A stretch of DNA of 53,563 bases from a virus. The notes under the pieces are model-generated. The model was not told where the DNA came from, made no database searches, and saw only the letters and a list, made by a program, of their open reading frames with translations. The position numbers and the translations under genes were made by a program. The number at the start of each line of letters is the position of its first letter. The first letter of the stretch is position 1. Below are positions 43,103-44,526 of this stretch, in pieces. Location: the IMG/VR virus record IMGVR_UViG_3300032173_000008, positions 1 to 53,563 of that record; one strand, 5' to 3'.

Positions 43103-43693
43103 ATGGCCAAAACGCTGATTGCTCCGACATCGATGGCTGACCTCAAGCCGGCCCCATATAACCCGCGCAAGATTTCACCCAAGGCCGCCAGCGCACTGCA
43201 GCGGTCACTCGGGGAGTTCGGTGACTTGTCGGGCATCACCTGGAATTCGCGTACCGGACACGTCGTGGCCGGTCACCAGCGTCTCGCCGAGCTGCGCAAG
43301 ATGGGGGCCAACCTCGTCGACGGTTGCGTTGTCGCCACAGGCGAGCGCTATCAGGTCCGGGTTGTCGACTGGCCAGAAGGCAAAGAGAAGGCGGCCAACG
43401 TCGTTGCCAACAGCCCCTCGATCGCGGGCGAGTTCACCGATGGACTGCAAGACGTCCTCGTCGACGTCGGCGCCGAACTCGACCACGAGCTATTCGCTGA
43501 CCTGTTACTGTCCGACCTGGAGGAAGAGGAGCGCGAAGGGGCGACCGAGTTGAAAGAGTGGGACGCTTCAGATGTGTCGGCTGACGGTCTCTTCATTTTC
43601 CACGCGCCTATTGAGTTGCAAGGCAAGGTCCGCGCGGTGCTCGAGCGCGAGTTCCCTGGCGTGAGCTTTGATGAGGAGATCGTTTTTGGGTGA
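43103..43693 (+). CDS. ParB/sulfiredoxin-like domain protein
   Basis: 196 residues. LKPAPYNPRKISPKAASALQ and HVVAGHQRLAELRKMG are the ParB N-terminal motifs, without a partition-type HTH. The C-terminus is acidic (LSDLEEEEREGATEL) with a beta end. Such proteins sit next to methylases in many phages; here the next gene is a disrupted methyltransferase whose start overlaps this stop. Confidence 0.75.
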   Translation: MAKTLIAPTSMADLKPAPYNPRKISPKAASALQRSLGEFGDLSGITWNSRTGHVVAGHQRLAELRKMGANLVDGCVVATGERYQVRVVDWPEGKEKAANVVANSPSIAGEFTDGLQDVLVDVGAELDHELFADLLLSDLEEEEREGATELKEWDASDVSADGLFIFHAPIELQGKVRAVLEREFPGVSFDEEIVFG

Positions 43694-44233
43694 CAAGGTC
43701 CACAACTCGGCTCCGGCACGCAAGGCGGAGTTGCGTCTCTGCCTGGTCGAGTCCCTTGGGGGGGGGAGAACGTCCGGGTAATCGAGACGCATGCGGGCCC
43801 GGGGAAGATGCATGAGCTCGCTTATGCGGACTGCGCCGACTGGCTTGGGGTAGACAAGGACATCCGGTCTCCTGGCTCAGTGCACTGCGATAGCCGCCTG
43901 GTGCTTCGGGCGATTGACATCCAACCATTCAACCTCTTCGACATCGACGCGTTCGGCGCTCCGTGGGAGCACGTCTGGATCGTGGCGCAGCGGCGCAAAC
44001 TCAAACGTGGCGAGTCGATTGCGCTGGCGATTACGTCCGGGGCCAACGCCGCGTGCGCAGCTCGTCAGCCAAATCTTCGCGCGGCCGGCTGGTCGTCCCA
44101 AATGCAGGCGGTCATTGGAGCCGACGTGGTCGTTGGTCACAAATGGTTCTGCCGCGAGGACGGGGCACGCCCGGTTAGCCTATGGAGAGACACCGGTCTC
44201 GATGAAGCAGGAACTCCTGGCAGCTTAGGCTGA
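43686..44233 (+). pseudogene. SAM-dependent methyltransferase-like gene, frame broken at a G9 tract, 3' end replaced
   Basis: From TTG 43686 (GAGGAG seven bases upstream) the frame reads GDKVHNSAPARKAELRLCLV and ESLGGG. At nine guanines (43758-43766) the reading must move by -1 (or need G10 or G7) to continue as ENVRVIETHAGPGKMHELAY, SPGSVHCDSR, NLFDIDAFGAPWEHVWIVAQ. ETHAGPG resembles SAM-binding motif I and FDIDAFGAPW the Trm1-like motif IV. The last ~27 residues (from CREDGARPV) no longer look like this fold but like a TnpB tail. The downstream piece alone has an ATG at 43808. Causes could be a real mutation, an error in the homopolymer, phase variation, or -1 frameshifting on G-GGG-GGG. 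Confidence 0.6.
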
Positions 44234-44272
44234 ACCAGGAATCTCCGGCGTTTACGCCGGGGAGGATGTCAA
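44151..44272 (+). ncRNA. Omega-RNA / IS200-IS605 right-end-like remnant
   Basis: The segment includes GATGAAGCAGGAACTCC, then a hairpin CCTGG-CAGC-TTAG-GCTG-AA-CCAGG (44216-44239). A second hairpin with stem CCGGCG-TTTA-CGCCGG extended to nine pairs (44242-44263) follows, then GGAGGATGTCAA. This order of two stems ending in GGGGAGGATGTCAA is what I know from right ends and omega-RNAs of TnpB-type IS605/IS1341 elements. No tnpB body is present; only its apparent C-terminal codons (C-x-E-D-x-x-RPV) remain upstream. The guide position would be 44273 onwards. Assignment rests on recalled motifs, not on a covariance search. Confidence 0.5.
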
Positions 44273-44283
44273 TGCCGATCGGG

Positions 44284-44526
44284 CTAGATCTTCACGGACG
44301 TCTCAATAGTAGTAGATTCCGAACGCGGCAATAGAGATTCCGAACGCCCGTAGACGGGTTTGTGTGCCGACACAATGCAATGCCGCACACAGTCGTCGTG
44401 CAGAGTCGCCAGGCCGATTCCGTATTTTTTCGCAGTGGCGCGAATGCTGGCGCCGGCGCGGATTTCGTCGAGCGCCTGCGGCGGGATTGTTCGGCGAGGT
44501 CTGCCGCCCTGGTGCCTACCCCGCAT
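44284..44526 (-). CDS. Small helix-turn-helix protein
   Basis: 80 residues starting MRGRHQGGRPRRTIPPQALD. IRAGASIRATAKKYGIGLATLHDDC is a resolvase-type HTH. The C-terminal 20 residues come from a 13-base direct repeat (44314-44326 and 44335-44347) and may be non-functional. It overlaps the upstream HTH gene by 11 bases and is the last gene of the leftward unit, convergent with the methyltransferase remnant. Confidence 0.5.
   Translation of the reverse strand: MRGRHQGGRPRRTIPPQALDEIRAGASIRATAKKYGIGLATLHDDCVRHCIVSAHKPVYGRSESLLPRSESTTIETSVKI

Follow-up and report, generated by a model that had tools for sequence, protein, structure and literature searches.

How did a sequence resembling the guide RNA of a TnpB nuclease come to lie at the end of the late genes of a virus, and is it the scar of a lost transposon or an RNA still in use? 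We analysed the whole virus record IMGVR_UViG_3300032173_000008 (53,563 bases, hereafter the window), which encodes a Mu-like tail sheath and a TerL-type terminase. The site in question lies where the late genes of the + strand end and adjoin a convergent operon on the − strand. Searches of isolated phages for DNA similar to the window and of plasmids for the flank to the right of the element returned no match, and no terminase was found in neighbour records.

Identity and architecture of the RNA

We built a covariance model from seven relatives, excluding the window; a full tnpB accompanies most of these, and in two (L060 and L071) tnpB is partial or the sequence breaks off at the edge of the contig. 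The model matches the 53.6-kb window once, at 44179–44272 over model positions 1–119 (54.6 bits, E 8.5e-12). An earlier note, made from the sequence alone, had proposed an orphan TnpB omega-RNA-like scaffold at the end of the late operon and had named a covariance search as a check; this single match bears the proposal out. Positions 44158–44272 of the + strand are a complete TnpB omega-RNA scaffold together with the transposon right end, composed of the following elements:

44158–44172, + strand: stem 0, GGACG / loop GGGCA / CGCCC with one A.C mismatch, from covariation
44179–44211, + strand: stem A (CCTAT/GCAGG, one A.C mismatch), loop GGA/GATGAA and stem B, a RAGATH-18-like module
44215–44240, + strand: stem C, TCCTGGCAGC-TTAG-GCTGaaCCAGGA, 10 pairs and a 2-nt bulge, from folding
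44242–44263, + strand: stem D, TCTCCGGCG-TTTA-CGCCGGGGA, 9 pairs, from folding and the model
44264–44272, + strand: right-end terminus GGATGTCAA, scaffold and transposon end, common to TnpB-linked right ends

The stretch matched by the model, 44179–44272, reads CCTAT-GGA-GAGAC-ACCG-GTCTC-GATGAA-GCAGG-AAC-[TCCTGGCAGC-TTAG-GCTGAACCAGGA]-A-[TCTCCGGCG-TTTA-CGCCGGGGA]-GGATGTCAA, in which the internal loop GGA/GATGAA between stems A and B is kink-turn-like and stem B (GAGAC/GTCTC) is free of mismatches. Two stacked hairpins followed by GGGGAGGATGTCAA had been described before; their coordinates (44215–44240 and 44242–44263) and the end at 44272 hold, and the number of helices rises from two to five. 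Stems B, C and D are perfect, stems 0 and A carry one A.C mismatch each, and folding of the feature region gives z = −2.6. Because the hairpin of stem 0 is present at 44158–44172, the scaffold is 115 nt long; the span of 44151–44292 given in the earlier note was correct in location, with the start of the scaffold moved to about 44158.

Stem 0 is a 5-bp hairpin that relatives keep directly 5′ of stem A, with a loop close to GGRCA and with position and loop nearly constant. All five of its pairs show covariation among 17 distinct sequences, with 98.8% of cells paired, a figure that is biased upward since the hairpins were picked by a script demanding complementarity. The sole unpaired cell is that of the window; the remaining 16 distinct sequences, among them the solo copy L055, have no mismatch in stem 0. 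GGCA in the loop is able to pair with UGUC at 44267–44270, forming a candidate pseudoknot. Both sides of this pseudoknot are altered together in L170 (loop GACG, end CGUC), and they do not change together in the first copy of L156 and in L162.

The link to TnpB elements extends beyond the model. A scan of IMG/VR for CGGGGAGGATGTCAA returned 120 stretches, in many of which a TnpB frame ends 17–150 nt upstream and the interval contains GGAATC and the stem D hairpin. Over 36 nt, the right end shares 94% identity with the termini of genes annotated as transposases on Methylophaga plasmids. In Rfam, the feature has subthreshold matches to RAGATH-18 (29.9 bits; gathering score of RF03064, 44.9) and HgcC (25.1 bits; gathering score of RF00062, 50), and TnpB-linked RNAs score similarly below threshold for these families (26.9–31.5 bits). 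HgcC is also found below threshold on the TnpB-linked omega-RNAs L083, L129, L131, L171 and L031, and L083 additionally matches RAGATH-18 and sot0042, likewise below threshold. These matches suggest that the Rfam families HgcC, RAGATH-18 and sot0042 belong to one RNA class. We assign the element to the IS200/IS605 type rather than to IS607 on the basis of the tnpA annotated beside the related complete element L129, of Methylophaga pinxianii, and of the overlap between RNA and tnpB. Gapped DNA patterns for near-identical RNAs gave no match in IMG/VR or in genomes, so the parent transposon was not found. The contig has no Cas12f1-like_TNB match and, by local profile, no TnpB open reading frame, in agreement with the earlier statement that no tnpB is present.

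Left junction, upstream gene and would-be guide

We considered the scaffold together with its flanks, which comprise the following features:

43103–43693, + strand: ParB-like gene, from PHROG 620/498 matches
43690–44233, + strand: possible methyltransferase gene running into the tnpB remnant, from open reading frames and one tblastn homologue
44151–44157, no strand assigned: left junction, where tnpB homology begins, from comparison with L083, L129 and L131
44157–44228, + strand: tnpB 3′ coding remnant, RTGHARLAYGETPVSMKQELLAA and stop, matching the GHAxLACGE..SMKQE tails of intact TnpB
44273–44292, + strand: flanking phage DNA, would-be guide TGCCGATCGGGCTAGATCTT, by analogy with the ISDra2 reRNA (PMC8612924)
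44284–44526, − strand: small open reading frame of the convergent operon with weak HTH similarity, from the list of open reading frames

The remnant holds the last ~23 codons of tnpB up to the stop codon at 44226–44228 and matches tails of the form GHARLACGE..SMKQE, so that the scaffold overlaps the 3′ end of the tnpB coding sequence, a feature of TnpB omega-RNAs of the IS200/IS605 type. The methylase-like frame crosses this DNA in another phase, with GLDEAGTPGSLG as its last residues. It had been noted that the methylase ends in residues like a TnpB tail; the TnpB tail codons are indeed there, in a frame other than that of GLDEAGTPGSLG.

A single homologue of the methylase-like protein, of 190 aa in Dulem virus 36, was detectable by tblastn, and its gene directly follows a ParB gene, the same order as in the window. 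The label of methyltransferase is weak, and would derive from a Pfam TRM match below cut-off (E 0.003) on the Dulem homologue only; family and solved-structure searches gave no confident identity for the protein, and in IMG/VR no close relatives were found of the protein encoded at 43808–44233 or of the homologue from Dulem virus 36. Similarity between the two is local and covers the first ~105 residues, and the C-terminus of the homologue has no counterpart in the window, where the native 3′ end of the gene is apparently missing. This agrees with the suggestion that a scar truncated the methylase: a homologue ending in the same residues would have spoken against it, and the only one detectable ends differently. 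We looked by eye for the methylase 3′ end just beyond the transposon right end and did not see it. The reading frame of the gene also changes across a run of nine G (43766–43774), so the gene is probably broken, although an assembly error in the run instead of a true mutation is possible.

At the other side of the scaffold, the hairpins and the subsequent GGGGAGGATGTCAA end at 44272, and a guide would therefore begin at 44273; the stop codon of the small − strand frame falls within this would-be guide. A search of genomes for the guide sequence had been proposed as a further check, and here the outcome was negative: the exact 20-nt sequence has no match in 84,980 species genomes, and near matches within the window are no more frequent than expected by chance. 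A promoter scan revealed no recognisable promoter for the RNA, and a terminator scan gave nothing at the feature and one + strand match, at 44403.

Relic or retained RNA

The locus is most plausibly a left-truncated relic of an IS200/IS605-type TnpB element, in which the last tnpB codons, the whole scaffold and the right end are joined to the 3′ part of the methylase-like gene between convergent operons. An element of this type would once have inserted at the site, and a deletion or recombination would then have taken the methylase tail, the left end of the element and all but the last part of tnpB. Phage transcripts may carry the RNA at their 3′ end, and it might still adopt its fold and associate with a related TnpB from another source, taking the phage DNA from 44273 onward as its guide. 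Direct observations in favour of such a relic are the homology in sequence and structure, the missing tnpB, the absence of any visible left end, and a methylase tail unlike that of the homologue; the frame break upstream and the lack of a guide target point the same way. The window omega-RNA is probably not under selection. Mismatches in two otherwise conserved stems suggest decay, of which little is visible, given that the other three stems are perfect and the pseudoknot can still form. Against the relic stand this limited decay and the position of the cut, which practically coincides with the 5′ border of the scaffold; several other solo copies begin near this border too.

Other phages also carry omega-RNAs that are solo or truncated (L099/L157, L055, L145, L137 and Aeromonas phage AP1). 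The model gave 95 hits, 77 of them with enough upstream DNA; a full tnpB is lacking in 22 of these 77, and 15 of the 22 keep at most 172 nt of detectable tnpB. The 77 copies were collected by right-end or scaffold patterns and include MITEs and one event counted twice, and we treat this mixed, pattern-collected sample as a lead rather than a test. That left junctions cluster close to the border of the scaffold was not relied on as evidence of selection for the same reasons, namely pattern-based gathering, admixed MITEs and shared events. Among copies that are TnpB-linked or at a contig edge, 2 of 36 have a broken stem A; among solo copies, counting the window, the figure is 3 of 10, and these numbers are small. 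Two further cases favour the relic: (i) L099 and L157, viral contigs that are 92–94% identical, carry the same solo omega-RNA after the same gene, and the L157 copy has mutations in the GGAATC and GTCAA motifs of the conserved RNA end; (ii) Aeromonas phage AP1 (L172, MT713136), an isolated phage, contains at 238144–238256 an unannotated truncated tnpB tail of ~80 aa together with a complete omega-RNA that scores 98 bits.

Shorter sequences of related appearance were also seen. A stretch of ~40 nt resembling TnpB right ends occurs in HK97, HK106, Stx phages and Gifsy-1; that of HK97 (L173, NC_002167, 20865–20905) is right-end-like with an R1 score of 29.2 bits, and no tnpB was detected within the surrounding 4 kb. 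About 20 IMG/VR loci have a similar motif, GCCGTAAAACCCCG..GGGGAGGATGTCAA, and lack tnpB.

We consider it unlikely that the RNA is a domesticated solitary omega-RNA, acting as a decoy for a host TnpB or as a guide that directs TnpB or a nuclease-dead relative to a match of 44273–44292. Of the element, little survives besides the complete scaffold, whose place at the 3′ terminus of a + strand operon is also that of native omega-RNAs, and copies without a full tnpB, most of them with little tnpB left, recur in viral contigs. Solitary CRISPR repeats of phages (PMC10651486) and, for TldR, prophage TldR and a tldR locus that apparently supplies guide RNA alone (PMC13418256) are precedents, from which it follows that solo guide RNAs can matter. 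These points are countered by the two stem mismatches, the failed search for an exact guide match, the empty promoter scan and the decay of an orthologous solo RNA in L157; moreover, the 15 copies with short tnpB include MITE-like elements, two copies of one event and some that are too short for a full scaffold. The broader proposition, by analogy, that phages repeatedly keep scaffold-trimmed solitary omega-RNAs as decoys or trans-acting guides that work against host TnpB nucleases or in their favour appears distinctly unlikely. If true, solitary omega-RNAs would be the TnpB counterpart of RNA anti-CRISPRs. The locus offers a clear, testable case of a phage-borne guide-RNA scaffold without its nuclease, and such solo copies recur in viral contigs: should any of them be used, they would form a new class of RNAs that interfere with TnpB or hijack it, and should they be unused, they call for caution in annotating phage guide RNAs by covariance search alone.

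It is quite improbable that the hairpins now persist solely as an mRNA 3′-end structure or terminator between the convergent operons. They are strong, lie between convergent genes, and RNA 3′ ends commonly retain such structures, but stem D is not followed by a T-run and the terminator scan is empty at the feature. A non-autonomous element (MITE) consisting of left end, omega-RNA and right end and moved by a host TnpA is very improbable at this site. Such elements do occur in viral contigs: two near-identical, MITE-like elements of 118 bp, in which a left-end hairpin is fused to an omega-RNA end, lie ~700 bp apart in L020 (8963–9058 and 9664–9759), and L037 and L091 have left-end-like sequence about 200–260 nt upstream. 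Unlike in these three, no left-end hairpin is found in the window within about 300 nt upstream of the RNA, and this stretch reads as methylase-like coding sequence. Chance hairpins unrelated to TnpB elements retain almost no probability: G+C-rich sequence folds readily, but the model match at E 8.5e-12, the shared tnpB-tail codons and the right-end terminus already contradict this origin.

Comparison with known systems

The reRNA of ISDra2 derives from the tnpB 3′ end and the right end, takes its guide from flanking DNA (PMC8612924, PMC10097598), and has an ordered scaffold of 116 nt with a pseudoknot between −5..−3 and −105..−103 (PMC10097598). The window RNA is alike in its origin from the tnpB 3′ end and right end, in its would-be guide from flanking DNA, in its stems, in the candidate pseudoknot between its 3′ end and a stretch about 105 nt upstream, and in length (115 versus 116 nt), and differs in lacking tnpB and a visible left end and in having two mismatched stems. 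RAGATH-18 is a published guide-RNA module of IS607 TnpB (RF03064; PMC11061315). The module of stem A, GGA-GAUGAA internal loop and stem B is found in both, whereas the window scores 29.9 bits against a gathering score of 44.9, and its relative L129 has an IS200/IS605 tnpA and an omega-RNA overlapping tnpB. HgcC (RF00062) matches the window over the whole model, including GGGGAGGA.GUCA; the 25.1 bits lie below the gathering score of 50, and TnpB-linked RNAs likewise reach only 27–32 bits.

Aeromonas phage AP1 shares with the window a left-truncated tnpB tail and a full omega-RNA in a phage, although its tnpB tail is longer (about 80 aa) and its right terminus is mutated. Solitary CRISPR repeat units of phages act as RNA anti-CRISPRs, Racr (PMC10651486), and prophage TldR and a tldR locus that apparently provides guide RNA alone are described as well (PMC13418256). 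RNA anti-CRISPRs and the window RNA are both phage-borne, solitary guide-RNA scaffolds without a nuclease; the former are CRISPR repeats, and the latter is a TnpB omega-RNA.
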